Shown piece after piece: positions 31,822 to 55,178 of a stretch of DNA of 64,000 nucleotides. Within the stretch, counting starts at the first letter, position 1. Each line of letters begins with the position of its first letter. Origin of the DNA: an uncultured Bacteroidales bacterium (GTDB lineage: Bacteria > Bacteroidota > Bacteroidia > Bacteroidales > Paludibacteraceae); the NCBI GenBank assembly GCA_903911085.1, contig CAIWCC010000040.1, positions 1-64,000 of the forward strand, read 5' to 3'. The notes beneath the pieces are model-generated. The model was not told where the DNA came from, made no database searches, and was given only the letters and a program-made list of their open reading frames with translations. The position numbers were made by a program, and so were the translations under genes.

Positions 31822-31919
31822 CAAAAATACCACATATACCACTTTTTCTAAAATAAAATTCTATTTTATATCATTGTAAACGTTTACAATAGAACAAAAT
31901 TCATTGCAAACGATTACAA
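31822..31919 (-). promoter_or_regulatory. Promoter with paired LacI-type operators (GH9-like gene)
   Basis: A -7-like TATTTTTG on the minus strand (31829-31822) is preceded by a perfect 18-bp palindrome ATTGTAAACGTTTACAAT (31873-31890) and a second site ATTGCAAACGATTACAA (31903-31919). The central CG steps are 56 and 86 bp upstream of the -7 centre and 30 bp apart. The same geometry recurs at three other promoters in this window. Confidence 0.75.
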
Positions 31920-32037
31920 AAAATGGAAATACAAACAAGGGAAATCTACAAGGAATAATTTTTCAATTCCATTGTTGATTTCCCTTAAATAAAAAGTTTC
32001 AAAAATTGCGTGAAGATCTAAAAAAAAGTATTCAACT

Positions 32038-33093
32038 TTACTTGATAAATTTCAACGGAATAGCCACATTGTAATTATCAGACCCATCATAAACGGCACA
32101 GAAAAGCACCTTTGGAATACCTTTATCCAGCCAGAGTTGTGGACGTTCCAGTTTGGTAACTTGTTTGATTCCGGTAACCCACGGAATTTGTGCGGTTGTA
32201 ACCAACGCATTTTTCGACGGTTTCCAGTCCAACCCATCTTTCGATTCGAAAAGAGCGAGACTCAACCCTGCATTGGTAAACGAGCCTTTAAAATCTTTTA
32301 CAATGGCCCAGTATTTTCCTTGCTGATACCAGATAAACGGATCTTCGGCAGCAAATTTTACAGAATCTTTCACAAAAATGCGGTTCGGCAATTTCTTGAA
32401 CGGTCCTTCGGGCTTATCAGCAATGGCAGCTCCATGGTACACCACACCACCAAAAGGCATTTTTCCTTCGCTTACTCCTTTGTACACCATCAAAATTTTA
32501 CCATCAGGCCGTTGAGTTACAGCTGGGTTGGCACACATCTGATGGTCGAAACTGTGTAAAGTGGTATCGATAGTTGGTTTTTCGGGTCTTTTCCATGTAC
32601 CAAGTGGAGAGTTAGCTACCGCCACACCAATACGCTGATTATTACGATATTCCCACCATCCTGGATCGCTGGTAGAAACTGCTGAAGTAAATACTTTGGT
32701 ACCTCGAGTTCCCATATAATACAAGTAATACTTCTTACCAAATTTATATACCGTGGGATTATGCGTTACATCAGCATCCCAGTATTTCTTATCACGTTTC
32801 GGCAAAACCACTTTTACATGTTTGTATGGTCCAGTTGGATTATCTGACACTGCCACGGCTACTTCGCTATCTGTTACCCAAGCAAAATGGCCCTTTACGC
32901 GCGGCCAACGACTATAGAAAAGATAATACTTACCATCGTTACCTTTCACCATCGTTCCACACCAAACCATGTAGTCGGGCAAACCGAATTTAGCAGTAGC
33001 AGGTACTGGTTGTATCCACTTGGCAACATCAAAATCCTGAGCGAAGGTTTGCAATGAAATGCTCAGAAGGAAAATCATTAAAAGTTTTTTCAT
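32038..33093 (-). CDS. Secreted GH43-like five-bladed beta-propeller protein
   Basis: 351 aa with a signal peptide (ending LQTFAQ). Repeated propeller-blade motifs are visible: GKYYLFYSRWPRVKGHFAWV, KYWDADVTHNPTVYKFGKKY, MCANPAVTQRPDGKILMVYK and AAEDPFIWYQQGKYWAIVKD. Acidic residues in WDADVTHNPTV and AAEDPF could be catalytic, as in GH43/GH117-like clan members, but the FxDPS start typical of GH43 is replaced by a VWCGTMVK segment. Family assignment stops at beta-propeller glycosidase-like. It sits within a minus-strand run with an esterase and fucosidase. Confidence 0.75.
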   Translation of the reverse strand: MKKLLMIFLLSISLQTFAQDFDVAKWIQPVPATAKFGLPDYMVWCGTMVKGNDGKYYLFYSRWPRVKGHFAWVTDSEVAVAVSDNPTGPYKHVKVVLPKRDKKYWDADVTHNPTVYKFGKKYYLYYMGTRGTKVFTSAVSTSDPGWWEYRNNQRIGVAVANSPLGTWKRPEKPTIDTTLHSFDHQMCANPAVTQRPDGKILMVYKGVSEGKMPFGGVVYHGAAIADKPEGPFKKLPNRIFVKDSVKFAAEDPFIWYQQGKYWAIVKDFKGSFTNAGLSLALFESKDGLDWKPSKNALVTTAQIPWVTGIKQVTKLERPQLWLDKGIPKVLFCAVYDGSDNYNVAIPLKFIK

Positions 33094-33120
33094 TTTGTGT
33101 AAAATATATTTGTTAAAAAA

Positions 33121-34743
33121 TTAATTCTTAATAAGTTGCTGAACAATATTTGTATTTGATTGCACAACAAAATAGTTACCATCAGCCAATTTTGAAACAT
33201 CCACTAAAGATTGATTTGTTTCTAAAAGTTTAATTCCCGAAAGATTCAGTATTTGAACCATTTTTCCATCTGCATTATTGATTTTTATCAGATTAGTTGC
33301 CGGATTTGGATAAAAAAGCCCATTCTCCATCTTTATTTGCGACACCGAACTTATTACTTTCAGCGCTGTACCTCTGACCAATATTCGACCTATCATCAGC
33401 TCATTTTTTGCATAAACTTCGGGGCGTTTTTGCATGTCAGCCAGATTTGCAGCTCCGAGTAATGTGGCTTTGCTTTCGGTACTTTTTACTGCTTTTAGTG
33501 TTATACGATGAGTTCCATTTGGCATATCAATCCAAAAAAACTGACCGCGATAACGATTGTTGCAATACTGATTAAAGCGGTTTACCTGTTTTACCGTACC
33601 TGTTGCACTATATTCAAACTGAACATCAGAGCGTTTAATCAAACTTGCAGGCTTCCCATCAATTTCGAACTCAATAGCTCCTGCTTCAGGACCGCCAATA
33701 TCGAACAATCCAAATCCGCTTCCTACAAATTCGAAACTGGTTGTTTGGAGTTCACGAAGCACTGGCACACGTTCAAACCACTCTTTAAACTGCTGATAAT
33801 CGGCATTTCCAGAACAACTGATTTCTGAAAATCTATTGTTAAATAGAGTTGATGCATTATACATACATCCCAATTCCCAATCTGAAACAAATTTTTTGGA
33901 AGGCAATGCTGACCTAAATACTCCAACTGTAGTTTGAATTTTGGAAATTCCACGTGCTATAGCGCCAGCATATAAGTCGCCCCCTTCACGGTTTGGATGC
34001 GTGCCATCTGCCGAAAAAGCCATTGGCACAGAGCCAGATGCACCTTTCCAGACAATAGTTCCCTCCTTTTCGAGCTTTGCTGGGTACATTCCTAAATGTA
34101 TGGACGGAATATTATAATACTGTGCAATTGCCTCGAAGCTTTTAATTTTAGAAGGCACATCACCGTTCTGATAACTAATGGTTTGGCTTCCCACAATAGT
34201 ATAAATAAAGCAAATATCCGTCTTCGGATTTTGGGCAATAATTTGACGAACAAGTCCTTCCATTGCCTGGTCACTTCCGCCATTCACTGCAAATTCCACA
34301 AAAACCAAATCGGGTTCGTAATCCAAAAGTTGCTCTTGGATACGAAAAGCCCCAAGCTCAGTTCCGGTACCCGAAACACCCGCATTTATCCCCTTAAATT
34401 TATTTTTTGGAAATGTGCGCTGCAAATAATCAAGCGCTTGCCCACGATACTGGTCATTGGCACGAGTAATGCTTCCGCCAATAAAACCAATTTTGATAGT
34501 ATCGGTATTGAGTAATATTTTAGCAAATAAATTTGGCAATCCATTACGAACTGTTGTTTCCTTAGGTTCTAAATAATTGGCCACAGTTATTGCATTTAAA
34601 CCATATTGAAATGGTGAGAAAGTTAAAGGCATTGAACCTGTCTGACTAAGTGCAATAAGCGAGTCGGTGGGCGATATTTTTGCCTGAGCCGACAAACTTA
34701 GACTAAAAAAAAGTGCTACAATAAAAATTGATACGTATCTCAT
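33121..34743 (-). CDS. SGNH-family carbohydrate esterase with T9SS sorting domain
   Basis: 540 aa with a signal peptide (ending SLSAQ). The SGNH hydrolase blocks are clear: IGFIGGSITR with nucleophile S91, GINAGVSGTGTELG, VFVEFAVNGG, and the catalytic Asp-His pair in SADGTHPNREGG. The middle region (about 330-450) is a beta-rich domain. The last about 75 residues, from GLFYPNPATNLIKI, are a T9SS C-terminal sorting domain, so the enzyme is likely surface-exposed or released. It probably removes acetyl or other acyl groups from the target glycan before the GH29/GH43 enzymes act. Specificity is unknown. Confidence 0.87.
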   Translation of the reverse strand: MRYVSIFIVALFFSLSLSAQAKISPTDSLIALSQTGSMPLTFSPFQYGLNAITVANYLEPKETTVRNGLPNLFAKILLNTDTIKIGFIGGSITRANDQYRGQALDYLQRTFPKNKFKGINAGVSGTGTELGAFRIQEQLLDYEPDLVFVEFAVNGGSDQAMEGLVRQIIAQNPKTDICFIYTIVGSQTISYQNGDVPSKIKSFEAIAQYYNIPSIHLGMYPAKLEKEGTIVWKGASGSVPMAFSADGTHPNREGGDLYAGAIARGISKIQTTVGVFRSALPSKKFVSDWELGCMYNASTLFNNRFSEISCSGNADYQQFKEWFERVPVLRELQTTSFEFVGSGFGLFDIGGPEAGAIEFEIDGKPASLIKRSDVQFEYSATGTVKQVNRFNQYCNNRYRGQFFWIDMPNGTHRITLKAVKSTESKATLLGAANLADMQKRPEVYAKNELMIGRILVRGTALKVISSVSQIKMENGLFYPNPATNLIKINNADGKMVQILNLSGIKLLETNQSLVDVSKLADGNYFVVQSNTNIVQQLIKN

Positions 34744-34811
34744 ATTTATATATTTAAAAACAGCATGAACTTAAAAAACAATCTAAAACAGCATTTTTTA
34801 ATCTTAAAAAA

Positions 34812-36458
34812 TCAATACCCTTTCAACTGAATACACCCACTCGAAGAAATTGTAGTCGCCACAGTAAACGTTACTGATTTTCCATCTTCCGAAGCTACTT
34901 TAATGGTGGCTTTGCCAGGGAAGCGAGTTGCTTTAAGCGAAAAAGACGCTTCACCATTGCTGTCGGTTGCCTGAATAGCAGCTCCATCAATTTTCACGTA
35001 ATCTCCACCTGTTGTAACTTCGGCAGTCACTTTTCGCCCCGCAATAACCGTTCCTAACTGATCTTGATAGGCTACACGCAATGCATTAGCTGTGGATGTT
35101 AGCGTTGGAATTGTAACGGCGCTGTTTCCTTTGGCAACCAACGAAAAAGTATTTCCGGTAGAAACCGCCAACGTACCGCTGTATTCTAGCACCACAACAG
35201 TGGCTATCGAATCGCGAGTAATGTTGGGCAAATTAACAGTTACACAATTAGTCTTTTTGGTAAATGTGAGTGCATTCTGCGGTTCGGTAAGTAAATATGC
35301 TTTTGTTACAGTATTGCTAACAGGCACATATAGTGCTGAGCCTGCAATGTAATCGAACAGGTGCAAGTACAGCTTTTGAACACCTGCAACTGTTTTTCCG
35401 GTTACACGTCCCGACCATGGTAAATTGCTTTTGGTCAATGGTGAAATAAGCGTGGTGGCATAAATTGCATCCCCATTTTTGCTCATCCACGCACCTATGG
35501 TTTTCAATGCATCTACACTTTGCTGAGGCACTACTCCCAGTTTATCGGGACCAATATTGAGCAACAGGTTTCCTCCTTTGCTATTAATATCAATCAACAT
35601 CCGAAGCAAATCGGTGGCCGACTTCCACTTGTTATCACCTTCGTAATACCCCCAGTGATTATTCATGGTCATGCACGTTTCCCAATCGTAACCCGGGTAA
35701 CCAGCATCCGGCACATTCAATTCTGGAGTTTTAAAATCCTGATTTAAACTACCACCCAACCGGTCGCAATGAATTATATTTGGTAAACTATCTGTGAATG
35801 TTTTGAAAATTTGTGCACGTGCGGCAGTCATGTTAGCCGGTGTATCCCACCAAAGAACCGACACATCGGGATAACGGCGACACAACTCCTTGACCTGAGG
35901 CAGTGCTACAGTTGCCAGATAGGTATCAAAATTGCCGGTTTGACCAACCGCATCCCATATTGTAGAAACAGAAGAAATAGCACCTCCGGGATGAGACCAA
36001 TCTTGTGCCTGTGAATAATAAAACCCGAATTTCATGCCATATTTTCTACAAGTTAACACAAACTGCTCTACTATATCTTTCTTATAAGCTGTGGCATCCA
36101 CCACATTAAAAGGGTCGGAAGATTTGAAATTGGCACATCCATCATGGTGTTTGGTGGTGTAAACCATGTACTTTTGCCCGGCATCTTTGGCCAGTTTTAC
36201 CCAGTTTTCCATATCCAGTTGCACAGGATTAAATTCTGCCAATTGAGTTTTATATTGCGCCACTGGAACTTTATCGTAGAGCATTCCCCACTCGCTTTTA
36301 CCACGAACCGTAGACGCATTGAAATGAATAAACATGCCAAATTTGGCCTCACGCCACCAGTCTTTCTTCGAAGCAGAAGTAGCTTTTTCAATGGTATTCT
36401 GCGCATTTGAGACCAACGCAAAGCAAAACAACGTACAAAGTATTATATATTTTTTCAT
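34812..36458 (-). CDS. Secreted GH29 alpha-L-fucosidase with C-terminal Ig-like domain
   Basis: 548 aa; signal peptide ending SNAQ. The GH29 barrel starts at WWREAKFGMFIHFNASTVRG; KYMVYTTKHHDGCANF and VSVLWWDTPANM follow, with probable nucleophile D205. DINSKGGNLLLNIGPDKLG closes the barrel. Residues from about 430 form an Ig-like or bacterial adhesion-like beta domain (NALRVAYQDQLGTVIAGRKV). It differs in architecture from the GH29 enzyme at 9289-11181, which carries its accessory domain at the N-terminus, so the two may act on different fucose linkages. It is 8 bp from the next upstream gene and so co-transcribed. Confidence 0.92.
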   Translation of the reverse strand: MKKYIILCTLFCFALVSNAQNTIEKATSASKKDWWREAKFGMFIHFNASTVRGKSEWGMLYDKVPVAQYKTQLAEFNPVQLDMENWVKLAKDAGQKYMVYTTKHHDGCANFKSSDPFNVVDATAYKKDIVEQFVLTCRKYGMKFGFYYSQAQDWSHPGGAISSVSTIWDAVGQTGNFDTYLATVALPQVKELCRRYPDVSVLWWDTPANMTAARAQIFKTFTDSLPNIIHCDRLGGSLNQDFKTPELNVPDAGYPGYDWETCMTMNNHWGYYEGDNKWKSATDLLRMLIDINSKGGNLLLNIGPDKLGVVPQQSVDALKTIGAWMSKNGDAIYATTLISPLTKSNLPWSGRVTGKTVAGVQKLYLHLFDYIAGSALYVPVSNTVTKAYLLTEPQNALTFTKKTNCVTVNLPNITRDSIATVVVLEYSGTLAVSTGNTFSLVAKGNSAVTIPTLTSTANALRVAYQDQLGTVIAGRKVTAEVTTGGDYVKIDGAAIQATDSNGEASFSLKATRFPGKATIKVASEDGKSVTFTVATTISSSGCIQLKGY

Positions 36459-36466
36459 TAGTACGA

Positions 36467-37870
36467 CTATTTTATACAGGTTTTCAACATTTGCATCTGA
36501 TTATTTTGTCCCGAAATTTTTATCAAATAAATACCTGGTCGTGACGCTATTTCATACAAAGCATTTTGGCTACAATGAATTTCTTTCAATTTTTGCCCGG
36601 CAATATCAAAAACCTCGGCAGTACGGGCATCGTCCGAAATAATATGAAGTGCATTCCCCTCTAATTGAGCAAAATTAATTCTGTTTTGAACAGGAGTAGA
36701 AACACCTGTAGAAACATCGACATACTCCACATTGAACCAATCTACATGATATGCTCCAACTTTATAAAACTGCAAGCGAATGTAAGGCAATGTGGTGGTA
36801 GGTACGGTGTAATCGTAACTGAAGTATTTCCATTCGGGCGTAAGTTGTGCCACATCTTTGGTAGTACCGGCAAAACGCGCCTGAATGCGGATTTCCCCGG
36901 TGACTGCACCATCTGTTTTTGCCCAATAGGAAATGCGTATTTTACGACCAGTCACCTCCGACGCAAAATTGGGTGTCTGAAGTCCTACTTCGTAATCGGG
37001 CGTGCCATATATTTCCTGCACATCTACAAAAAGTGAACGGTTGCCCTGTAAAGGTTTTGCGCCTCGCGAAGGAAAAACACTGTAACGAAGCAATGCGCCA
37101 TTGGAAGTGATATTACCCACAACAGTAAAAGGAGCCTCTGTACTTTCGGTGCTGAATGTAGCTGGTGCTACAGTGGCACTCGGAGCCATAGGACCTCCCC
37201 AAAATTCATTCGGAGTTTTGTCGAAACCTAAATAACCTGCACTATTGAGCGCAACACTACTTGAATTTACAAACGGAACAGTATAAATGGGGCGCATTTT
37301 CACCTCATCAATCATGCAATCGGCCACTTCACTAAAATGAAACAGCAACCGTGCGTTGGTCAAATCAGTTGATTTAAATACTGACAAATCAAAATCAACC
37401 ACATAAACTCCCCAATCGGCATTGAATTTAAAACATTCCTCCGAATAGCCTTTGAGAATAGTGTTTGTGCTTTTGTCTATCACCGAAATATTTACCCCCG
37501 ATTGAAGCGCCATACCTGCTTTTGCTCTGAAAGTTAGTTCGTACTTCATAGGCAATAAGTTTTCAAAATCCTGATAGAGCAATGCATCCCAAATCGTGTT
37601 GGAGGGATTAGACGTGACACTCACTAAAGCACTTTTTGCTCCAGCAAATGATTGCGCACTTTGCGAGGCCGATGCCTGTATAGTGTTTTCGCATTTGAAA
37701 AAACTCCATTTCCCTACACTCGGCGCATCAAAATTGCCTACTGCGTTAGTAACAGAATTCTCAAATCCAGGGTCGACTACCAAATTAGCAGTTAAATTAG
37801 ACTGCGAAAAGGCATGCATACAGATAGATGAGAATAGCAAAAACACTAACAATTGATTTCTATTTTTCAT
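36467..37870 (-). CDS. Secreted tandem carbohydrate-binding-like protein with T9SS tail
   Basis: 467 aa from ATG 37870 (MKNRNQLLVFLLFSSICMHA signal peptide); an ATG at 37894 adds eight residues ahead of it. Two jelly-roll modules of CBM4_9/CBM6 type are visible: VVDPGFENSVTNAVGNFDAP to CMIDEVKMRP, and the second to YIRLQFYKVGAYHVDWFNVE. A T9SS-type C-terminal domain ends the protein (EVFDIAGQKLKEIHCSQ, RPGIYLIKISG). No catalytic domain is present, so it probably binds glycan at the cell surface. Direct repeats at 37897-37935 lie just upstream of its start. Confidence 0.78.
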   Translation of the reverse strand: MKNRNQLLVFLLFSSICMHAFSQSNLTANLVVDPGFENSVTNAVGNFDAPSVGKWSFFKCENTIQASASQSAQSFAGAKSALVSVTSNPSNTIWDALLYQDFENLLPMKYELTFRAKAGMALQSGVNISVIDKSTNTILKGYSEECFKFNADWGVYVVDFDLSVFKSTDLTNARLLFHFSEVADCMIDEVKMRPIYTVPFVNSSSVALNSAGYLGFDKTPNEFWGGPMAPSATVAPATFSTESTEAPFTVVGNITSNGALLRYSVFPSRGAKPLQGNRSLFVDVQEIYGTPDYEVGLQTPNFASEVTGRKIRISYWAKTDGAVTGEIRIQARFAGTTKDVAQLTPEWKYFSYDYTVPTTTLPYIRLQFYKVGAYHVDWFNVEYVDVSTGVSTPVQNRINFAQLEGNALHIISDDARTAEVFDIAGQKLKEIHCSQNALYEIASRPGIYLIKISGQNNQMQMLKTCIK

Positions 37871-37896
37871 TAAACAAGCAGTTATCATTTGCATTA

Positions 37897-37935
37897 TAAA
37901 AATACGGTTTCAATGTACTCTAAAAATACGGTTTC
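37897..37935 (-). promoter_or_regulatory. Direct repeats upstream of the CBM-esterase-fucosidase run
   Basis: TAAAAATACGGTTTC occurs at 37897-37911 and identically at 37921-37935, a 24-bp period, starting 27 bp upstream of the 37870 start codon. This could be a tandem regulator site; it is unlike the paired palindromes of the neighbouring promoters. Confidence 0.45.
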
Positions 37936-37989
37936 GAAAACTAAGTTTAAAATTCAGCGCATCACTTGTAATCAACAATAAATATTGAA

Positions 37990-39624
37990 TCATTGAGGTA
38001 CAATTCTCACAAAATCAAAATCAGCCGGAATGCGTTTTCCGGTTCCCCGGTTGTGCGAATAGACACCAACCATCATGCCCATAAATCCCCAATTTGGTGT
38101 TCCCTGGTCACTCAGGAAGGCGGCATCGGTTATTGCACCGGCATCCATCCATGTTTTATTATCGTAACTATACAAGAACCAGCGTTGGAGTTTATCCACT
38201 TTCATTCTCAGGTAAATAGTGTTGCTTTTAATATCGGGTGTTACTTTTACAACGGCTTTTTTGCCATAACGGCATTCTTCCAGCAATAATTCCAGTTTAC
38301 CTACATTATCGCGTTGCAGACCAAGTTTTACCCACGTTTTAGTATCGTAATGGCCTGTCAAACCGGCTTGCTCCTTGGTTTCCGGGTTGAAAGTCAGCTT
38401 TGTTACCGCTTCAAATTTCAGCCAACGTTCGCGTTGTACAATCAGGTTGCGACCAGCAATAGTATCTATATCAAAATTGCCGGAATAAATACGCAGAAAA
38501 CCTTTCTTTTCGGTCAGACTGAAATCTTTGTACACTGGATTGCGGCGCCATACCCATTGAATTCCCAACCGGGGAGCATTAAACTCGTCGCTGGATGCAT
38601 TAAACTGAGGAGTCCAGGGTAAGTTAGGCCGCACATTGGTATCAAGCGGACCTTTTCCATCGTTGGCAATAGGCCATCCTTCTTTACTCCAGCCTATTTT
38701 GTACAACGAGGTTTCTCGTCCAAGTTGGCTTATTCCACGTTGTTTTCCTTTTATTTTACCCTGAATCCAACGTTGAGAAATCACTGTTGTCCACCACTCG
38801 CCATTTTGTGTAATGAAAATTTTTCCATGACCTTGATGAAAGTTGATGGCGTTCGTATCTTTTTGTGTGAAATAAGGGTTGTAAGGCGAATTTTCATACG
38901 GGCCATAAATGGATTTTGAGCGCGCAATCAACATGTGATGTCCCTGAAACAAACCACTGGAAGCCGCCATAATAAAGTAATAATAGCCATCTTTTTTGAG
39001 CAAATGTGGTCCTTCTGGCGCTGCTTTTTTCCCCTCGGTTTCTATCCAACGAGGTTCTTCCACCATTTTGGTACATTCCTTATTCAGTTTCACTATTTTG
39101 GCTCCATTACCGGTTGGAATACCCGCAGCAAAAAGCATATAATGTTCACCGTCGGAATCTACAAAATGTGATGGGTCACTTCCAAAAGTGGTAATTTGAA
39201 CCGGCTTACTCCACGGACCGTAGATACTTTTCGATTTTGTCATTATGTTTCCACGCACATTGGTACTACGGTCTTTACTGAGCTGAACGGTACAGTAGAA
39301 AATGTAAAACTCACCGTTGTAATACGAAATATCGGGCGCCCAAATTCCCATTCCGTCAAAGAAATAGCTCAAATCGAGGTCTTCACTTTTGTTGAAAACG
39401 TGACTAATCTGCTTCCAGTTGACCAAATCTTTGGAATGCGAAATAATTATTCCGGGAAAATATTCAAAAGTAGAATTTACAGTATAATAGTCATTCCCCA
39501 CTCTAATGGTTGAGGGATCGGGGAAAAAACCAGGATTAACTGGATTGGTGTACGTTTTTGGCGCTGCCGCAAAACCAAAATGAGAAATTATTATAAAACT
39601 CAGAAAAAATGTGATTTGTTTCAT
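37990..39624 (-). CDS. Secreted GH43 beta-xylosidase/arabinofuranosidase-like enzyme
   Basis: 544 aa; signal peptide ending GFAAA. The GH43 propeller begins TYTNPVNPGFFPDPSTIRVG, base D36, then GIWAPDISYYNGEFYIFYCT and the acid Glu in KAAPEGPHLLKKDGYYY. The C-terminal about 190 residues form the beta-sandwich typical of XynB-like GH43 enzymes (FSLTEKKGFLRIYSG, RFLYSYDNKTW-like and SHNRGTGKRIPADFDFVRI). Removal of xylose or arabinose from side chains is the best guess. It lies 38 bp after the GH2 gene and probably depends on the paired-operator promoter near 42.5 kb. Confidence 0.92.
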   Translation of the reverse strand: MKQITFFLSFIIISHFGFAAAPKTYTNPVNPGFFPDPSTIRVGNDYYTVNSTFEYFPGIIISHSKDLVNWKQISHVFNKSEDLDLSYFFDGMGIWAPDISYYNGEFYIFYCTVQLSKDRSTNVRGNIMTKSKSIYGPWSKPVQITTFGSDPSHFVDSDGEHYMLFAAGIPTGNGAKIVKLNKECTKMVEEPRWIETEGKKAAPEGPHLLKKDGYYYFIMAASSGLFQGHHMLIARSKSIYGPYENSPYNPYFTQKDTNAINFHQGHGKIFITQNGEWWTTVISQRWIQGKIKGKQRGISQLGRETSLYKIGWSKEGWPIANDGKGPLDTNVRPNLPWTPQFNASSDEFNAPRLGIQWVWRRNPVYKDFSLTEKKGFLRIYSGNFDIDTIAGRNLIVQRERWLKFEAVTKLTFNPETKEQAGLTGHYDTKTWVKLGLQRDNVGKLELLLEECRYGKKAVVKVTPDIKSNTIYLRMKVDKLQRWFLYSYDNKTWMDAGAITDAAFLSDQGTPNWGFMGMMVGVYSHNRGTGKRIPADFDFVRIVPQ

Positions 39625-39662
39625 CTCAAATAGTTAATAGTAAATGAAAAAAAAGTAACTGA

Positions 39663-42449
39663 TTAATTGGCTTTTATGATTATGTTTTTTGCTTCTGCAT
39701 TTTTCAACACATAATAATCCAGCTCCGAACGGTTAATGGTTTCTTCCATTTTTTTTCCTCCTAAATCATAACTGACTGTATATGAACTCGCATGTTCGGC
39801 TGGAGTAATGCTCAGAATGGTTTCGTTGCCCAATTTCAATACACCATTCAATTTTGCTTCAGCATTTAAAGCAGATAATCCGGGAGTAACTTCCAGTGTT
39901 TCGCTCCATTCGCTTGGGTTTGCACCAAACTGGGTGGCATTATGCACCTGAACAAAATATTTTTTACCAGCTTCCAACCCATTTACCTTAAATGCTCCGA
40001 ATGTAATGGCTGGCAATGTTTTCCAACTCGACTCAACTGCTGGTGTTGTTGTATAGCGGGCCTTGTAGAATGTATCTGAAAACACCCACCCAATGCCAAT
40101 ATTACAACCATCGGTCGTTGGCACAAAGCCCCAAACAACGGGCGGCAAAGTTTTATAACCATTTTCGGGAATAATAGTTACAGGTGCTGAAGGTTCGCCT
40201 TCACCAGCATCGTTGATGCCCACCACCGAAATTTGAACCGGAACATTTACGGGTAACGATTTCAAGTCGATATAATGGTCGATGGTACGAGCAGTGGTTT
40301 TAGTGTCCCCTTTAACAGTATATTTAAGAGCATATTCGGTACAAAACTCATTTTTTTCAAAAACCACACGTACTGAACGGCAGGCTGGTATCACTGCCTT
40401 CACTTTTGGTGCTGAAGGTTTAGCAATAAAAAGGGTTGTATCTTTTACATTGTAGCCGGTTGGCGATAGGAGACTTACTTTCAAATAAGCAACATTTTCA
40501 TTTTTAGTCCATGAGGTAGTATAATTCAGCATATTATCTCCGGGTTTCACAACCGGAAGGTTTATAAATGAGCCTTGGTTAGTGCTACCATCTTTGGCTT
40601 TGACTTCCCACACCAATTTATAACCGCTGAGATTAAATGCCGGAATATCAATTATTCCACGAGGCTTAATTGAAATAGAACTCGTTACTTTTGTGCCATT
40701 TTCTGAATTTACAACTTGTAATGCCCGAACCGGCGCATAATAATCTTTCATTTGTTCGTAGCAGCGCTTCTTATTTCTATAATCGTCCACCACACCCCAT
40801 TGACGATTTTGGTGTATTGGTGTAGCAGTTGTAGGATTTGGCGATTGGTAGCGACTTCGGTAATCGTTATAAGTCCATATTGAATAGCCACTCAAGTATT
40901 CTTTGCTTGAAAATCCATCAATAATAAAGTTTTTATATTTCGTATTGTTTGGCGTATCGTATATTAAATTTCCCGCTTCAATACCATAACCGCCATATTC
41001 AGTCATAAAAATGGCTTTATCGGGGTAGGTCGCAGCTAGTTTATCCAGTCCTTTTTCGTAGTTCCAATATTTGTTTATCCAAATCATATCGCCGTATTTA
41101 GCAGCATCGTCAGCCTGATAATCAGCCGTGTTCGACACATAAGTTACTAAACGGGTGGTATCGAGGTTTTGCTTGATGTGCTTAATGATGGATGCTACAT
41201 ATTCGTTTACTTGCGGTTGAGTAGTTTTATCGCCCATTTCGTTGCCCACACTCCAACCAACAACTGAAGCATGATTAAATTGTTGCTCAATAAGTTTGCG
41301 GGCAAATTCACGTGGTTCAGCACTTGCAGCATTCATAAAAGATGACCAGTTATTGAATTCAGAAATGACCATTATGCCTTTTTCGTCCAAATAATCCATT
41401 ACTTCCTCGGGCAATGGACGGTGCGACAAGCGGGTAAACGTACAACCCAGTTCCTTCATTTGGTCAATATCCTGCTTGTAACGCCACACAGGCAATGTGT
41501 TGGCAGTCAGACGGTCATCGGCTACCCAGTTGTAACCTGTCATACGCACCACTTCGCCGTTAAGCAACATTTTACGACCGGAAGTTGTCAGTTTGCGAAT
41601 ACCAAAACGGTCCGAAAAAGTGGAAAGTAGCTTATTATCAACTGATAAAGTCACTTCGGAAGTATAAAGATTTGGACGGTCGAAATGCCAAAGGTTGGTT
41701 TGCTTTTTGGAAATATTGAAGGTGAAAAGAGTAGAAATTTCAGCACCAGAAGCCACTTTCAATGGGTTGGCATTGCTTGATATTATCTTTTTACCTTCAT
41801 ATAAAATAGTTGGCTGACAGGTAATTGTCTGCTCTGTCTGTGAATCATTTCTAACAAATACTTTTACGCTAACTTTCGATGTTCCGGTTTTGAAATCGGG
41901 TGTTGCCACCACTTCCTGCCGAACCACATGAACTGGATCAACTATGCTCAACGTTACCGGTCGACGAATGCCACCCCAATTCACATAAGCACCCCAACTC
42001 AAACTGTTATCAACTTCAACGGCCAAGGTATTTTTCGATTGAAGCAAGTTGGTAATGTCGTAGCGTTCGCGGTAATTGCCCACAAGTTGTTTGGCAATTT
42101 GTTTATTGTTTAAGAATAACCGATAGCTCATGCTAACCGCTTCAAATTCCAGATAAACACGTTTTCCTGCTTTTTCGGGCGATTGAAAAGTGGTACGATA
42201 CCATGCCTTACCAATGTAGTTGGTAGTTTCGTTTTCATTTTCCCAACTTCCCGGCACTTCCGTTTTGTTCCATGACTTATCATCATAATTGGCCGAAAAC
42301 CATTGTTGGGATTCGCCATTTTGTTGGGGATCGATTCTGAATTGCCAGAAACCATTGAGTGAAATGCGTTGTTCGCCGGAAGTAAACCGTCCGGCCGTTA
42401 GCGTTTGAAGAATGAGAAGGAATACGATGGTGGAGTAAAGCGACTTCAT
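39663..42449 (-). CDS. Secreted GH2 glycosidase with C-terminal Fn3-like region
   Basis: 928 aa; signal peptide MKSLYSTIVFLLILQTLTAG. Sugar-binding domain (ISLNGFWQFRIDPQQNGESQ to GGIRRPVTLSI), Ig-like domain, then the TIM barrel. The acid/base is E404 in VGWSVGNEMGD and the nucleophile is E484 in IFMTEYGGYG. After about residue 600 come beta domains with Fn3-like features (NDAGEGEPSAPVTI, LEAGKKYFVQVHNATQFGAN). It is longer than the plus-strand GH2 at 12018 and probably has a different target, for example beta-galactose or beta-glucuronate. It is first in a two-gene unit with GH43, downstream of paired LacI-type operators. Confidence 0.92.
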   Translation of the reverse strand: MKSLYSTIVFLLILQTLTAGRFTSGEQRISLNGFWQFRIDPQQNGESQQWFSANYDDKSWNKTEVPGSWENENETTNYIGKAWYRTTFQSPEKAGKRVYLEFEAVSMSYRLFLNNKQIAKQLVGNYRERYDITNLLQSKNTLAVEVDNSLSWGAYVNWGGIRRPVTLSIVDPVHVVRQEVVATPDFKTGTSKVSVKVFVRNDSQTEQTITCQPTILYEGKKIISSNANPLKVASGAEISTLFTFNISKKQTNLWHFDRPNLYTSEVTLSVDNKLLSTFSDRFGIRKLTTSGRKMLLNGEVVRMTGYNWVADDRLTANTLPVWRYKQDIDQMKELGCTFTRLSHRPLPEEVMDYLDEKGIMVISEFNNWSSFMNAASAEPREFARKLIEQQFNHASVVGWSVGNEMGDKTTQPQVNEYVASIIKHIKQNLDTTRLVTYVSNTADYQADDAAKYGDMIWINKYWNYEKGLDKLAATYPDKAIFMTEYGGYGIEAGNLIYDTPNNTKYKNFIIDGFSSKEYLSGYSIWTYNDYRSRYQSPNPTTATPIHQNRQWGVVDDYRNKKRCYEQMKDYYAPVRALQVVNSENGTKVTSSISIKPRGIIDIPAFNLSGYKLVWEVKAKDGSTNQGSFINLPVVKPGDNMLNYTTSWTKNENVAYLKVSLLSPTGYNVKDTTLFIAKPSAPKVKAVIPACRSVRVVFEKNEFCTEYALKYTVKGDTKTTARTIDHYIDLKSLPVNVPVQISVVGINDAGEGEPSAPVTIIPENGYKTLPPVVWGFVPTTDGCNIGIGWVFSDTFYKARYTTTPAVESSWKTLPAITFGAFKVNGLEAGKKYFVQVHNATQFGANPSEWSETLEVTPGLSALNAEAKLNGVLKLGNETILSITPAEHASSYTVSYDLGGKKMEETINRSELDYYVLKNAEAKNIIIKAN

Positions 42450-42503: not shown

Positions 42504-42600
42504 CAAATATACTAAAATCAAATGAAGATGTTCAAATAAGTGATCAAAAAATCATTGTAAACGAATAAAAAGGTAGAAAAAAAGAATGTAATCGTTTACG
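42504..42600 (-). promoter_or_regulatory. Promoter with paired LacI-type operators (GH2-GH43)
   Basis: A -7-like TATATTTG on the minus strand (42511-42504) is preceded by a proximal half-decayed site TTGTAAACGAATAA (centre 42562/42563) and a distal site TGTAATCGTTTACG (centre 42593/42594). Distances to the -7 centre are 55 and 86 bp. It matches the other three promoters apart from a one-base shift of the proximal site. Confidence 0.65.
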
Positions 42601-48700: not shown

Positions 48701-49731
48701 GATGTTGTAGAAGTGCCAACATTCAAATAGATAGCATAAAAAATATCATTTTTTTGAAGACCTGGATTTGCCTCCGAGGTTGGATACATAGTAAATGCCG
48801 AACCACCACATTGTGTAGATGAACCACCAATATAGTTATCAGACACATTAAAATTATTGCCTGTTTCTCCTGTATTTATGTAAATAGCACTATAATATGC
48901 ATCTGCACTAGAATTAAAAGCTGTTGTTTCATAAATACTATTTCCAGTAATAGTAAAATCGGTGGAATACGCGTTAATACAAATACTGTGCGATCGGTCT
49001 GAATTAATCCTCCAAGTATTGTATATATTATTATTAATTATGCTGTTATGGTGATTCGGATGGCCCGATCGCGCTTGTGAATATATTGCATTTATAACTC
49101 TAGTGCCACTGCCAACTGTAGTAATATTACAGTTTGATATTTCATTATAGGAATTATCACCATTTTCATCGGAGTATGATCCTGCAAAGAAAATTATTCC
49201 AAAATTCGAAGCTGGATTAGCTCCTTTAATATTACAGTATTTTATAGTATTATTATGTGATCCGTTATAGAATTGAATTGCAGATGCACCATCTGCAGTA
49301 GAATTGTTAACAATAGTCATATCGGCATTACCCGTTTGGTTTACTCGCCCATCAACAGTAACATTATGAGCTCCTTCAAATCGTAATATCGCACCACCAA
49401 CTGAACCACTTATTATACAGCCAGAAGTGGTTGGGTAAATCTTCAAACTTCCCCAGTTTTTAGTATTGCCAATAATATCCCAATCACCCATTTCGGTGGT
49501 ACTTCCCGAAATAGTTATAACAACCTCATTGGTTCCATTTTGCCACCCCAAAGCATTAATAGCTGCATGTAACGTGGTGTAAGTTGTATTGTCGTCCGAT
49601 CTGGTAGAACCACTTACAGTAACCTGAGCTGTAGATATTTGACTCGAAAATAAACAAACAAACAACAAAAATGGAAGACATTTTCTATTTGCGATAAACT
49701 GAAGCATTCTAAAAAAATAATTCATATTCAT
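42739..49731 (-). CDS. Giant secreted parallel beta-helix protein with T9SS sorting domain
   Basis: About 2,330 aa from ATG 49731 (49725 is equally possible; the hydrophobic signal segment is CLPFLLFVCLFSSQISTAQ). Long series of NNTI/GNTI-type rungs (ISNNTIGS, TISGNSFYETT, IYNLSNT) define right-handed parallel beta-helices. The region is internally duplicated: an N-terminal block (VTVDGRVNQTGNADMTIVNN) is repeated about 800 residues later (VTFDGRVNATGNSVDLSIVN), each followed by the same order of motifs. The C-terminal about 500 residues include beta-sandwich-like material and end in a T9SS C-terminal domain (LYIYDITGRFIQKQLFS). No lyase active site is assigned. It could be a glycan-binding or adhesive surface fibre, or a lyase. 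Confidence 0.85.
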   Translation of the reverse strand: MNMNYFFRMLQFIANRKCLPFLLFVCLFSSQISTAQVTVSGSTRSDDNTTYTTLHAAINALGWQNGTNEVVITISGSTTEMGDWDIIGNTKNWGSLKIYPTTSGCIISGSVGGAILRFEGAHNVTVDGRVNQTGNADMTIVNNSTADGASAIQFYNGSHNNTIKYCNIKGANPASNFGIIFFAGSYSDENGDNSYNEISNCNITTVGSGTRVINAIYSQARSGHPNHHNSIINNNIYNTWRINSDRSHSICINAYSTDFTITGNSIYETTAFNSSADAYYSAIYINTGETGNNFNVSDNYIGGSSTQCGGSAFTMYPTSEANPGLQKNDIFYAIYLNVGTSTTSSVQGNVIRNISSSNTSSATPFYGIKVDAGNVNIGTTSGNIIGNSTGTGSIYVAVNSKTGATTDNINATMYGIYIGSNGNVDCRNNTIGSVSTANTTGNTCNIVGIYKAAVAGTTTISNNTIGSATEPNSIFAADKTTMTDADARLVCGIMSEGTGNITFNNNTIANLKNGTTSSSTTTANVIYGILSTNGTNTIDNNIIRDLTISNSNLVNDTTSVGGIILRGETSKTVRGNTIYNLSNTNSFFSGSVVGLLYNGNTSANTISKNFIHSLSVRDVSENNSIFGIKIASGASTLSNNIISIGVNSKTILYGIYDSGVASQNTNLYHNTVNIFGLQNGGTANSYALYSAANANVRDFRNNIFNNNRTNESGSGAHYSVYCNYSSAGTLTINYNDYIATRNGAILGYFGATKSTLSDWKLATAQDENSLTINPLYSLSGSTFANDFMPSSLSLNGISGLGVTEDFGSNTRVSLFTIGAFESYLPVQIYNGATLITGYPCLRVAFEKINDGTHTNDITIKLTGNSIENAPVILNASGQGAANYSSINIFPTITGLAINGDLNSSLIELNGADNVTFDGRVNATGNSVDLSIVNSSTGTSASTFSFDQNAQNNNVRYCTIKGASLGINGTMYFADGNAFNGNGLNTISQNIITNVSGNRPIYSLVSGGSSTYPNTGNIISNNEFKDFLNPVNESAALYIRGYNPTSGTNSWTISGNSFYETTTFSPVNSYYSVIKIGNSSSNVGGQGYTITDNFIGGSSKECGGTWNFTNNQNFSSFSAISFNLTSIGTTNLQNNTIKNINYSNTGGTNWKAIEINNGAVNIGTVTGNTIGAPTGTGSLTVTGGSGQDNYNGSDIYGIYINAEQDVDCRNNVIGSFTTSNTDSRFASHFYGIFKNYGAGNTTFSNNTIGSEITANSINATGTSISHDQHVYGILNRGNGNIAISNNTIANLRDGNSSTNSANQAYINGIRTEEGTNTITNNTIHDLSISDANNNESDAASTCGISITKATNTSATGNTIYNLSNTYSTFGGKVIGMYLSNGIGGNDVSGNVIYNLSAMGDQASNASVLGLNLNCGNTTENTVNRNFIHSLSVPSSTTSRLYGIGNYTGKTTYANNIISISENVANTIYGIFDNGDVGNDIKLYFNTIYIGGSLGAGFANLNTSYCLYGNAASNNRDFRNNVFSNAQSTAEGENLHYAVYFNYPNNTNLNLNYNDYFVSGTGGTLGFYNGVIKTSLPIVPAKDANSLIVNPSFDSAGSTVASNYNTSVDLVGTSSTGIITDYNLSTRNTFPVMGAWERLMINKWLGSTDTNWNTASNWTMNSVPATSENIIIHSNAVRDCKLSNDYIANNIVSDQSNFTLQTNGYKLSIKGDINLTNGAKIAAASVGSTVELAGEALQTIPAASFVDDNIYNLTINNASNVKLSGTLNLLNSISNTSGKLDASTNSPSFNYSGSAAQSIGNEFLNNKVYNLGINNSAGVMLNQDFSVENKLTVNSGKITIPTEKQLNVIGTISNNVGVNGIVVKASPTGAVPNGTLIFHNTQAAGQNVPATVEMYSLAFQTQGIKKWQFFGIPLRSILATPTFDGSTVREMHENVVGITGRWESMINGSVMTSFTGYEISQPSAKVITFRGDLENKDFGPYTLTCTSTATYKGEHLIANPYTAAIDIKKIQFGSDDSNVIEKTIYLYNTGSNADWTANGGTTSNITTKAGQYNSVPLNWAGVGGIPAQVPSMQAFMVGAKSVTTISIPYSSAETVTKNTEMMRTKNIVDANKTFTTIDVIGSRFSDKLWLFTEQSCTPYFDNGWDGPKAIGSAYAPQLYAIEADGIYQVNSVSDINNTELGFQAGEDTNYTLTFTHQNTSIVYPELYLVDLKESKTIDISQSGTQYSFTATPTTAPEKRFKIITSKNTLTKLSDEYDQKLSLICNQKTIIIQNKSDENGELYIYDITGRFIQKQLFSANNITTIPTNLSSGSYIVKAITKSQRVGQNLIFGF

Positions 49732-49803
49732 TTCATTATAAGATGTTATAAACAAAAAAATGGTAGTATAAATGAGTAAATGATGTTTCGTACAGATTTT
49801 TTT

Positions 49804-51287: not shown

Positions 51288-53039
51288 TTATTTCACCACC
51301 ACTTTTCCAATACGGTTGTTTACAGAAACAATATAAAAGCCATTTGTAACAGGTACAATTTCGTTATTAGATTTCAAAGTAACTCTTTTAATCAATTGAC
51401 CAGAAGCAGAAAATAGAGAAGCTACTTTACCTTCTTGATTATTAATAAGAATTGAATTTTGAAGAGCAATTACATTAAGTTGTTTATCCGAATAAACAGT
51501 ATTTAGAGCAGAAGCGCCTGCAAATTGATATGCACCTATAGTATTTGTTGTTGTTCTAGCCACACCTAACATATCGACAGTAGGGATAGTAACAGCAATG
51601 GCAATTGGAGTAGCATCGGCATCGCTCGATGGAAAAGTTGCAGGCAATTTCAATGCACCAACGGTTTGTACGGCAAGAGATTGAGCATCTGCAATTTTAA
51701 AATTTGCAGTACGAATTGAATCATAAACTACTTTATCGAAAAAATCTACTCCTGGACTTCCAATAGCACCTGCTGTAAATATTGGACGCACAAATTTCAG
51801 ATCCGTAATATTTTTTCCGCTAACCATATCAGTACCTGGACTTAATGCCGCAGAACCTGTCATCAATGTTCCATAAATGTTATTTGAAATAAAATTACGG
51901 GTATCACGCACGCGAAGTTCATCTTTATTTGGTTCGTTAAGAATAATATTGTTCACAAGCAAAACACCATCAAAAATTAATTCTACTTGACCTGTTGTTG
52001 AAGCTATAGTTGATAAATTATTTAAAATAGTACAGTTAATAATTGATCCGCCTTTTGTTTTTCCTCCATTAACACCTTCAAACCTTAATCCCGAGCCATA
52101 ACCTGCAGCTGAATTATTGTGAATAAGACAATTGTAAACTAATGCATTTGATTCAACATTTGAAGTTGACCAGATAGCACCACCCTTACCAGAACCACCA
52201 CCAACTAGTTTAGCTTCGCAGTTTCTAATAATAGAGTTTGTAATTTTTCCACCGTGCGAGTTCATCCAAATTGCACCACCACCTCCATTGGCAATAAGGC
52301 CAGCAGATGTACATTCTTCAATCAAACATCTATCAATCTGAGAAGATTTATTGGTCATCATTATTGGACCATTTCCACCAGCTCTGATATTACGTATAGT
52401 ACAAAGTATTAGTTTTCCAGCATTTTCATCCAGATTTTGAGCTGCAGGTGGAGCGCTTGAAGCTACACCTAAAATAATAGCTCCACTAAAAGGTACAGCT
52501 GCAGGTACTAAGTCACCATAATAATAATGATTTGCCAATGTTGCACCATTTACCTCACCACCAGTAAGTATCAAAAAGCGTTTGGAAGAACCCGTAATGT
52601 CATCGTATGGCACAGCACCTTTAAAAATTGTTTCGTTACTAAATTCCCAAGGTTCTACAATTCCGTTTCCATCTTTATCAGCTACTGCTCTTGCAGCCAA
52701 ATCAATTGTAGTTTCGGCACCACTAAAACCACCATAAATCTTACCCGTTGTAACTGTGGCTACAATAGAAACAGGAAGCGTTGTAAGTGGATCAATTGCA
52801 GTAGATGATAACACATAAGTACCTTTTGCAAAATAATAGGTATCAGTACCTATAATTTCGGGGGCATTAGAAGTGATAATCTGCTCAGGAGTTATTCCTG
52901 CTAAAGCTGACCAAGATGTGGCATCGCCAGCAGGGCGCACATAAAATGTAGCAGCAGTTAATTGTGCTGATACAGCTAGTAGCGAAATAAAAGCTACCGA
53001 TTTTACCCGATTAACGAGTTGTTGAGTTGAATTTTTCAT
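51288..53039 (-). CDS. Secreted T9SS beta-helix protein, copy 1
   Basis: 583 aa; signal peptide ending AQLTAA. The central region (about 110-420) has right-handed beta-helix features: repeated ITNSIIRNCEA, VYNCLIHNNSAAGYG and IINCTILNNL rungs, as in PL6-like or choice-of-anchor beta-helix proteins. The C-terminal about 70 residues are a T9SS-type sorting domain (VASLFSASGQLIKRVTL, VTNGFYIVSVNNRIGKVVVK). A paralogue with the same start, rung order and tail follows at 53286-55031, and the two promoters share the same layout. Possible roles are polysaccharide lyase or surface glycan-binding protein; no catalytic residues are claimed. Confidence 0.82.
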   Translation of the reverse strand: MKNSTQQLVNRVKSVAFISLLAVSAQLTAATFYVRPAGDATSWSALAGITPEQIITSNAPEIIGTDTYYFAKGTYVLSSTAIDPLTTLPVSIVATVTTGKIYGGFSGAETTIDLAARAVADKDGNGIVEPWEFSNETIFKGAVPYDDITGSSKRFLILTGGEVNGATLANHYYYGDLVPAAVPFSGAIILGVASSAPPAAQNLDENAGKLILCTIRNIRAGGNGPIMMTNKSSQIDRCLIEECTSAGLIANGGGGAIWMNSHGGKITNSIIRNCEAKLVGGGSGKGGAIWSTSNVESNALVYNCLIHNNSAAGYGSGLRFEGVNGGKTKGGSIINCTILNNLSTIASTTGQVELIFDGVLLVNNIILNEPNKDELRVRDTRNFISNNIYGTLMTGSAALSPGTDMVSGKNITDLKFVRPIFTAGAIGSPGVDFFDKVVYDSIRTANFKIADAQSLAVQTVGALKLPATFPSSDADATPIAIAVTIPTVDMLGVARTTTNTIGAYQFAGASALNTVYSDKQLNVIALQNSILINNQEGKVASLFSASGQLIKRVTLKSNNEIVPVTNGFYIVSVNNRIGKVVVK

Positions 53040-53086: not shown

Positions 53087-53183
53087 CAAAATAACACATA
53101 ATAAAATAATATACAATACAATAAAAATTATTATTAACATGTAAACGATTACAAATTATTTATTTTTCATGTAATCGTTTCCA
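53087..53183 (-). promoter_or_regulatory. Promoter with paired LacI-type operators (beta-helix copy 1)
   Basis: A CAAAATAA element (53087-53094, the minus-strand -7 region, a slightly imperfect TAnnTTTG match) is preceded by TGTAAACGATTACA (centre 53146/53147) and TGTAATCGTTTCCA (centre 53176/53177). Distances are 56 and 86 bp, identical to the promoters at 31.8 and 55.1 kb. Confidence 0.7.
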
Positions 53184-53232: not shown

Positions 53233-53267
53233 AAAAAAAGAGGCTGCCTTTTGAGACAGCCTCTTTT
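53233..53267 (-). terminator. Rho-independent terminator of the 53286-55031 gene
   Basis: AAAAAGAGGCTG pairs with CAGCCTCTTTT around a 10-nt loop, right after the stop codon of the upstream gene. Confidence 0.85.
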
Positions 53268-53285
53268 AAAATAATGTTTAAATAA

Positions 53286-55031
53286 TTATCTTACCACAAT
53301 TTTGGCAACTTTATTAGCAACAGATACTAAGTAAAAACCTTTATTAGCAGGTATTGTCATTTGATTAGATTCAATAGAAATTGTTTTAATCAATTGACCT
53401 GATACGCTAAACAATGATAAAACTTTACCTGATAAATTATTTACAACTATTCCACCATCACCAGCATAAGCATTCAATTCGCTGTCATTTATTTGTTTTA
53501 CAGCTGTAGCGCCTGTAAATTGATATGCACCTATTGTTCTTGAATAAGCACCACCCGTACGCGATACTCCCATCAAATCAGTTGTTGGCACTGTAGTATA
53601 TGGAATAAGTAATGCTGCGTTTACGGTATACTCTGTTGGCAATGAATTTAATGCTGCAGTAGTAACGGCTGGAGAAGTTGCAGAATTTATTGTGAAATTA
53701 GCTTTGCGAATTTCATCATAGCTTGCTTGGTCGAAGAAATCATCACCTGGGCTACCAATGTTACCATTAAAAGATGTAGGCGATTTAAATCCTAAATCGG
53801 CTACTAATTTTCCTGAAACCATATCAGTACCTGGACTTGCTGCCATTCCTACAAGTTCACCAACAATATTGCTAGCTGCAAAATTATTGGCTGCATGGAA
53901 ACGAATTTCCCCTTTTGTATCGCCAACTACAATGCTATTTGCAATAAGTCCCGATTGAATTAATTCAACAGATGCCAAACCTGCACCACTTGCTTGCGTT
54001 AAATTGTTAGCCATAGTACAATTAATTACTTCAATACCGCGTTTGTTGGCAACACCATCGAAACGCAAAGCACCACCATAACCAGCGGCAGTATTGTTAT
54101 AAATCAAACAATTTTCTACAATTGTATTATTTTCAGGATTAATCAAAGTGTTGGTACCAGCCCAGATAGCTCCACCACGACCAGAGTTACTTCCACCAAA
54201 TTTAGCTAAATTATTACGAAGTACGGAATTTTTAATTTTGCCACCTAAGTTGTTGGTGTAAATTGCTCCACCACCACCATTGGGGTTTAATCCTTCGGTA
54301 GAACATTCTTCGAAAAGACATTTGTCAACCAATGAGTATTGATTAGTAAGCATGATTGGACCCATACCGCCAGCTTTAATTTTGCGAACTGTACAGCAAA
54401 TCATTTTTCCTGCCTTTTCAACAACATCATCCGCAAGTGCAGGGAAAGTTGAAACTACACCTAAAATAATTGCTCCAGGATAAGCAACAGCTGTTGGGAG
54501 TAAATCACCAAAATAATAAAAATCAAAAAAAGTAACACCATTCACTTCGCCACCAGTTACTGTCAACATACGTTTAGCAGAACCTGTAATATCATTGGCA
54601 GGAACAGCTCCTTTAAAGATAGTTTCGTTTGTAAACTCCCATGGTTCCACAATTCCGTTTCCATCTTTATCAGATAAAGCACGTTGAGCTAAATCAATAG
54701 TTGTTTCTAATCCACTAAAGCCACCATAAATCAAACCTGTAGTCAACTTTGGAGCAATAGGTGTTGGTAAAGTAGTAACAGGATCGATAGCAGTTGCAGT
54801 TAACACATAAGTACCTTTAGCAAAATAATAAGTATCTGTACTTACAATTTCTGGTGCATCAGAAGTAATAATTTGCTCGGGCGTAATACCAGTTAATGCC
54901 GACCAAGAAGTGGCGTCACCAACAGGGCGAACATAAAATGTTCCAGCAGTTAAGTGAGCAGATGCTGCCAAAAGCGAAACAAATGCCACCGATTTAACTC
55001 GACTAACGAGTTGTTGAGTAGAAATTTTCAT
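53286..55031 (-). CDS. Secreted T9SS beta-helix protein, copy 2
   Basis: 581 aa; signal peptide ending AHLTAG, nearly identical to copy 1 at its N-terminus (QQLVSRVKSVAFVSLLAASA). The beta-helix rungs (IKNSVLRNNLAKFG, VENCLIYNNTAAGYGGALR, VINCTMANNLT) and the T9SS C-terminal domain (VLSLFSVSGQLIKTISI) match copy 1 block for block, with divergence concentrated in loops. Gene, promoter and terminator arrangement are duplicated together, indicating a duplication of the whole transcription unit. It is likely co-regulated with copy 1 through the paired operators. Confidence 0.82.
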   Translation of the reverse strand: MKISTQQLVSRVKSVAFVSLLAASAHLTAGTFYVRPVGDATSWSALTGITPEQIITSDAPEIVSTDTYYFAKGTYVLTATAIDPVTTLPTPIAPKLTTGLIYGGFSGLETTIDLAQRALSDKDGNGIVEPWEFTNETIFKGAVPANDITGSAKRMLTVTGGEVNGVTFFDFYYFGDLLPTAVAYPGAIILGVVSTFPALADDVVEKAGKMICCTVRKIKAGGMGPIMLTNQYSLVDKCLFEECSTEGLNPNGGGGAIYTNNLGGKIKNSVLRNNLAKFGGSNSGRGGAIWAGTNTLINPENNTIVENCLIYNNTAAGYGGALRFDGVANKRGIEVINCTMANNLTQASGAGLASVELIQSGLIANSIVVGDTKGEIRFHAANNFAASNIVGELVGMAASPGTDMVSGKLVADLGFKSPTSFNGNIGSPGDDFFDQASYDEIRKANFTINSATSPAVTTAALNSLPTEYTVNAALLIPYTTVPTTDLMGVSRTGGAYSRTIGAYQFTGATAVKQINDSELNAYAGDGGIVVNNLSGKVLSLFSVSGQLIKTISIESNQMTIPANKGFYLVSVANKVAKIVVR

Positions 55032-55079
55032 ATCGATAAAATTTTAAATAAATAAATTGAATTATAAAAAAGTAATGAA

Positions 55080-55178
55080 CAAAATAACAGATAAATTAAT
55101 TCCAAAACAAATTAAGCTCATATATTTTAACATGTAATCGTTTACAAAACACAATTATTTATTGTAAACGTTTGCAAT
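55080..55178 (-). promoter_or_regulatory. Promoter with paired LacI-type operators (beta-helix copy 2)
   Basis: CAAAATAA (55080-55087) as -7 region, then TGTAATCGTTTACA (centre 55139/55140) and TGTAAACGTTTGCA (centre 55169/55170), at 56 and 86 bp. Outside the shared GAACAAAATAACA segment and the operators, the spacer DNA has diverged from the copy-1 promoter. Confidence 0.75.

Follow-up and report, generated by a model that had tools for sequence, protein, structure and literature searches.

Distance-locked LacI-type palindromes before glycan-degradation genes of an uncultured Bacteroidales bacterium point to a probable upstream activator

Palindrome pairs and genes of the window

The window analysed here (G000:C40:1-64000) is the first 64,000 nucleotides of contig CAIWCC010000040.1 of an uncultured Bacteroidales bacterium of the family Paludibacteraceae, whose own genome (G000) is a 6.25-Mb draft in 269 contigs. 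Four of its promoters carry a pair of TGTAAWCGWTTACA-like palindromes (31875/31905, 42556/42587, 53140/53170 and 55133/55163) upstream of a -7 box of the TAnnTTTG type. The two palindromes are spaced by 30, 31, 30 and 30 bp, the distal centre lies 86 bp from the -7 centre in all four promoters, and the proximal centre lies 56, 55, 56 and 56 bp from it. These pairs and distances, described in an earlier sequence-only reading of the same DNA, were fully reproduced, and no pair occurred in any of 200 first-order Markov sequences, against four observed. Single palindromes with up to three mismatches were about as frequent in the window as chance predicts (42 against 43.3). The -7 box is an exact TAnnTTTG in two promoters (31822-31829 and 42504-42511), while the other two (53087-53094 and 55080-55087) read TTATTTTG, with one mismatch. 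The elements and the genes behind them are as follows.

29500..31794, minus strand: target 1, large protein; its F5/8 type C and CelD_N matches are weak and fall short of Pfam cut-offs
31822..31829, minus strand: -7 box TATTTTTG, promoter 1
31875..31888, minus strand: proximal palindrome, promoter 1, perfect
31905..31918, minus strand: distal palindrome, promoter 1, 86 bp to the -7 centre
32038..42449, minus strand: target 2, GH2 (39663-42449), then GH43, CBM_4_9 protein, GH29, GDSL esterase and GH43
42504..42511, minus strand: -7 box TATATTTG, promoter 2
42556..42569, minus strand: proximal palindrome, promoter 2, weak (two mismatches, spacing 31)
42587..42600, minus strand: distal palindrome, promoter 2
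51288..53039, minus strand: target 3, DUF6383 protein
53087..53094, minus strand: -7-like box TTATTTTG, promoter 3
53140..53153, minus strand: proximal palindrome, promoter 3, perfect
53170..53183, minus strand: distal palindrome, promoter 3
53286..55031, minus strand: target 4, DUF6383 protein
55080..55087, minus strand: -7-like box TTATTTTG, promoter 4
55133..55146, minus strand: proximal palindrome, promoter 4, perfect
55163..55176, minus strand: distal palindrome, promoter 4
55278..64000, minus strand: window part of the SusC/SusD run behind a fifth pair, gene at the edge cut

The fifth pair is located at contig position 70166/70196, 6 kb beyond the window end, and is followed by a same-strand run of genes for an SSF symporter, an FAD oxidoreductase, SusC and SusD, which reaches into the window to 55278 and, judging by its spacing, probably forms an operon. 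The closely spaced same-strand genes of target 2 would likewise constitute one operon. The start of target 1 is that of the sequence-only reading; the longest possible frame starts ahead of the -7 box, at 31842, and PDB comparison of the 780-aa product encoded at 29500 gave no match. Both DUF6383 promoters contain TATTTTGT at their -7 position, which is compatible also with TAnnTTGY, an alternative box reported for Flavobacterium psychrophilum (PMC9723704). A 2338-aa reading frame without Pfam match (42739-49755) lies between promoters 2 and 3.

Distance between palindromes and -7 box across genomes

Our scan of the own genome revealed 36 palindromes with at most one mismatch, compared with 23 for a reversed-pattern control. 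Nineteen of them belong to ten pairs, the 20th pair site having two mismatches, and six are lone palindromes situated 83-86 bp from a -7-like box; nine further ones fall within reading frames, one lacks the CG centre and one (C31:47222) is intergenic without a -7-like box. Given this breakdown, unphased single palindromes at random distances from promoters, an outcome that would speak against a fixed architecture, were not what the genome contained. Across the resulting 16 promoters (ten with pairs, six with a lone palindrome at the distal position), an exact TAnnTTTG lies 85-87 bp from the distal site in 10, and a -7-like box with at least 5 of 6 matches lies there in 15, the remaining one being at 83 bp.

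The same distance was found in genomes that had no part in defining the rule, where 23 of 26 promoters had the exact box at 85-87 bp, against an expectation of 0.03. Counting two pairs of locus L207 as well makes this 23 of 28. Many of these promoters are orthologs, above all the symporter promoter, and so do not represent independent cases. The 26 comprise the 23 places first examined, one of L203 and two of L206. Promoter orientation was taken from the downstream frame, except at the contig edges L188 and L198, where it was set by the -7 box itself; without both, the count is 21 of 26. Upstream sites at a fixed, helix-phased distance, a trait of class I activators, are present at 15/16 own promoters and 23/28 elsewhere.

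Over 32 pairs the spacing was 30 bp in 24, 29 bp in five and 31 bp in three. The proximal palindrome is absent from 10 of the 42 tabulated promoters; nine of these keep a distance of 83-86 bp between their single palindrome and a -7-like box, and none of the ten has an exact box at 54-58 bp. Since lone palindromes keep the distal distance, the distal site is the constant element and the pair is optional. The fixed architecture initially proposed consequently holds for the distance throughout the genome and fails for the obligatory pair. The predicted positions shift slightly: with the -7 box placed at -12 to -5, the location described for the TAnnTTTG box of F. psychrophilum (PMC9723704), the centres would lie at about -94.5 (distal) and -64.5 (proximal) instead of -93 and -63.

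The promoters were also inspected for a -33 element in an alignment of 39 regulon promoters, from which two promoters whose -7 box is poor and the near copy G004_C100b had been left out. TTG at -26 to -21 was present in 13/39 of them and in 9/52 other promoters. The idea that a missing -33 box signals dependence on an activator was rejected, since the box is missing from other promoters here as well and its lack is uninformative; in Flavobacterium johnsoniae a -33 motif was similarly not identified according to PMC7366714.

A pair model (R1) and a whole-promoter model (R2), each search scoring 150 first-look candidates, yielded no further strong full-length case in the own genome, besides weak partial matches such as C3:26464 (19.5 bits) and C106:11695 (21.3 bits); as both were trained on these promoters, this result speaks for completeness and not for independent recovery. 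When R1 was run with strict filters over 393 genomes drawn from the order, the own genome was the sole match.

Additional shared letters accompany some of the sites. AYGAWTTT often follows directly downstream of the distal palindrome, in relatives too, and could be an extended contact or a site for the polymerase alpha subunit. The lone-site promoters on C111 (L024:10087-10105) and C140 (L026:7415-7433) share TCAAAAA(A)GTC...AAAGCTTTTTGACTGAAAA at the place expected for the proximal palindrome; this motif, found at these two places in the whole genome, possibly belongs to a second regulator.

Candidate regulator, its targets and related LacI proteins

The palindromes had been assigned to the LacI class, and this assignment is borne out by the CG centre, a feature of even LacI/GalR-type palindromes, which is invariant in both sites of all ten own pairs. 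The proposal of one regulator for the glycan genes, encoded outside the window, gained support as well: among the four LacI-type genes of the own genome, the one at G000:C171:13595-14617 (minus strand) co-occurs with the pairs, glycoside hydrolase (GH) and Sus genes lie behind the sites, and its product is very probably the regulator, with predicted binding to the pairs. The C171 protein has a PF00356 helix-turn-helix domain above cut-off (38.8 bits) and near full-length PDB matches to CcpA and PurR, including a sugar-binding-protein-like effector domain, with CcpA chains matching best. It scored 150.1 bits against TIGR01481, the ccpA equivalog of NCBIfam, short of the cut-off of 442.35, and stayed below every LacI equivalog cut-off in NCBIfam.

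Orthologs of the C171 LacI at 75-85% identity were found in G004, G011, G019 and G027 only, among 59 other genomes, the next best match being at 53%. Paired sites are present in six of the 60 genomes, namely these four, the own genome and G002. A LacI of at least 75% identity thus accompanies five of six pair-bearing and none of 54 pair-free genomes (Fisher 1e-6 for all 60 genomes, 1.6e-5 when restricted to the genus, both ignoring relatedness). In all four ortholog-bearing relatives a pair lies between lacI and a divergent symporter gene, likewise at L203, and at L206 a lone site separates lacI from a SusC gene, with a pair further away. The own symporter promoter (C40:70166/70196), orthologous to those of the relatives, retains its pair even though lacI is located on a different contig; a search for a lacI remnant beside it gave none that was convincing. 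In G011, three pairs (C192, C880, C898) have a 29-bp spacing and two perfect TGTAAACGTTTACA sites, and because the C880 pair adjoins a partial second lacI copy (72%), a LacI paralog with its own site variant may exist there.

The other LacI genes were considered in turn. C269 (maltose-type) was rejected on its distribution and its different site class, and C103, located beside FucU, on its distribution: its orthologs (61-78%) occur in pair-free G005, G008, G016 and G020, the search among pair-bearing relatives having covered G019 only. The C39 LacI has a TVDRVI helix and adjoins mannitol dehydrogenase.

Predicted targets, identified by Pfam and PDB comparison, include GH2, GH43 (PDB match 6ms2, E 5e-132), GH29, several GH16, a GH86-type enzyme matching beta-agarase 8h97 and GH86 porphyranase 4aw7, a GH51-like arabinofuranosidase and a GH-core/H-lectin protein, along with the SSF symporter run with SusC/D, DUF6383 proteins, a leucine-rich repeat protein and a hybrid two-component regulator. 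In relatives, 20 of 24 first genes match own targets, mainly symporter (8), GH16 (4), GH2 (2, 83-84%) and DUF6383. The regulon probably serves the use of a galactan, of either the agar/porphyran or the arabinogalactan type. The hybrid two-component regulator gene (L025:2792-6925, on C111) has a lone distal site at a distance of 86 bp from a TATCTTTA box, which may indicate a cascade of LacI over a hybrid two-component system (HTCS).

A comparable geometry was observed with a different palindrome. In G041, which belongs to another family of the order, a 53%-identical LacI lies near two CGGAAACGTTTCCG palindromes 31 bp apart, and the genome holds nine palindromes of this type with at most one mismatch, versus one for the control. 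Five distinct places are paired at 30-31 bp (partners with up to three mismatches), a sixth being a near copy, and in four of the five a -7-like box (5/6, none exact) lies at 85-87 bp towards the downstream frame; this result is weaker than that within the genus. For six divergent pairs the distance was also taken towards lacI. Counted from the far site, an exact -7 box stands at 75, 77, 78, 96 and 96 bp in five of them, which differs from 86 by about one helical turn; the sixth, that of G004, lacks one, and an extra box is present elsewhere in two of the five.

The own maltose-type LacI gene, which adjoins SusC/D, GH65 and GH13 genes, belongs to a group with one CGCAAACGTTTGCG-like site that has an exact box to either side. 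Fifteen congeneric loci have these two boxes at distances of 63-64 and 65-66 bp and two more at 65/65 bp, which makes 17/17 congeneric loci with a site; a few of them show an extra box. This layout was not seen in rows from four genomes of other families. At the own locus G000:C269 (L033:10092-10105 and 3808-3821) the TGCAAACGTTTGCG site has -7 boxes 63 and 66 bp to either side, and a GH57 gene has its box 65 bp from a TGCAAACGTTTGCG site as well.

One may tentatively propose, while regarding it as doubtful, that LacI proteins of this Bacteroidales branch have specialised as upstream activators and that selection acts more strongly on their geometry than on the DNA sequence they recognise, with one group acting near -64.5/-94.5 through two palindromes in two families, the maltose-type group using a single site about 65 bp from boxes on both sides, and lacI promoters lying about one turn off. 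If true, promoter position would serve as a code by which activator regulons of uncultured Bacteroidota can be read from sequence alone.

Proposed activation, alternatives and known systems

LacI-family proteins are best known as repressors, and control of polysaccharide utilization loci (PULs) in Bacteroidota is usually attributed to SusR, HTCS and extracytoplasmic function (ECF) systems. CcpA and PurR bind DNA in the liganded form. We propose, with a probability of roughly 0.68, that the C171 LacI acts from upstream, through polymerase contact, as the activator of about 16 promoters, which form a galactan-type glycan regulon. A LacI dimer would sit near -94.5 on every target promoter and a second one near -64.5 in most, on roughly the same helical face, and the upstream-bound protein would contact RNA polymerase and turn the promoters on. 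By analogy with CcpA and PurR, the sugar-liganded protein might be the DNA-binding form, so that sugar could switch the target genes on. Sites locked in distance upstream and never overlapping the -7 box fit activation by polymerase contact, and LacI sites upstream of the promoter typically activate, in a helix-face-dependent manner, in the case of CcpA (PMC3463425).

Several observations weigh against this proposal. G002 has a pair, and no ortholog of the C171 LacI was found in it even at E 0.001; no site within three mismatches lies upstream of the own lacI gene, and a second lacI copy (L204) has no nearby site. The co-occurrence statistics ignore the relatedness of the genomes, and many of the relatives' promoters are orthologs. 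At L207 (71% LacI), two pairs lack a box at 86 bp, one of them having a box at 75 bp, and a perfect palindrome before a LacZ-type GH2 gene (C31:47222) has no box at the fixed distance. In two-site promoters, moreover, the proximal palindrome is closer to consensus than the distal one (mean 0.31 vs 0.69 mismatches), which agrees poorly with dominance of the distal site.

The main rival holds that the same LacI is an upstream-bound repressor or anti-activator, blocking another activator or an upstream polymerase contact until sugar releases it. LacI proteins mostly repress; for the lev operon, CcpA is described as a repressor that binds upstream and blocks the activator LevR (PMC3463425); and in two promoters a second shared motif does lie between LacI site and -7 box. 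That motif, however, occurs only twice in the genome, most promoters have no recurrent second motif, and the distance is rigid across unrelated targets, which leaves repression from upstream improbable, if by no means negligible. Somewhat less probable still is binding by another protein, a LacI paralog or a CRP/FNR-type factor using TGTA-N6-TACA, with C171 merely linked. The sites in G002, the further partial lacI copies in G011 and a TVSRAL helix common to other LacI genes would suit it, whereas the CG centre, a LacI-site hallmark according to PMC4052901, is kept in 10/10 pairs, C269 has its own site class, C103 orthologs do not track the pairs (61-78% in four pair-free genomes, G019 being the one pair-bearing relative searched) and the Bacteroides Crp palindrome given in PMC3878776 differs. 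That the geometry simply reflects recent copying of one ancestral promoter, with the distance unconstrained, is very hard to maintain: likeness outside the sites is seen in two C45 promoters and in G004 C100a/b, but over the 39 promoters few columns outside the sites and the -7 box are informative, spacers are mostly unrelated, targets come from unrelated families, and in G041 the palindrome changed while the spacing stayed.

Under the preferred explanation, activation by the C171 LacI, about 16 promoters would share a rigid layout of the activating type, which is kept across a family boundary despite a changed palindrome. Such a layout offers a direct test of activator contact with the Bacteroidota RNA polymerase and its unusual -7 box, and regulator and targets would become assignable in uncultured organisms from sequence alone. 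Our literature search, with subscription journals mostly outside it, found no report of this regulon or of fixed-distance LacI activators in Bacteroidota.

Among known systems, CcpA/cre of Bacillota, which activates ackA, pta and ilvB, shares the LacI family, the CG-centred palindrome, the site upstream of the promoter and the helix-face dependence (PMC3463425). It differs in that the present LacI is below the TIGR01481 cut-off and in the 30-bp pairs, the sites near -64.5/-94.5 and the Bacteroidota -7 box; CcpA, moreover, has few activating sites, and they are interspersed among repressing sites. Tandem LacI-family sites (RafR, ScrR; intersite peaks at 13, 22 and 32 bp) resemble the pairs in having two dimer sites about three turns apart and have been interpreted as cooperative binding (PMC4052901); distances in that source are to start codons, whereas here the -7 box distance is fixed and the second site optional. 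HTCS and SusR-like PUL regulators of Bacteroides likewise use two sites on one helical face (PMC3878776), but these are direct repeats (21 bp for HTCS, 67/77 bp for SusR) bound by other protein families, in contrast to palindromes and a LacI. Bacteroides KdgR, UxaR, UxmR and UxuR are LacI-family proteins of the same order that, compared by description only, are listed for uronate pathways in PMC3878776. The Crp (BT4338) palindrome of the same source, wwwTATGTTnTAnAACATAwww, does not correspond to the consensus TGTAAWCGWTTACA, and an AraC/LacI hybrid of Vibrio described in PMC12125979 is not relevant to the present regulon. Tandem LacI sites about 32 bp apart (PMC4052901), upstream activation by LacI proteins and turn-spaced double PUL sites in other families (PMC3878776) are already known; relative to the literature found, what appears to be new is a putative LacI-controlled PUL regulon in which the site near -94.5 is fixed, that near -64.5 is optional and the geometry is apparently kept while the palindrome changes.

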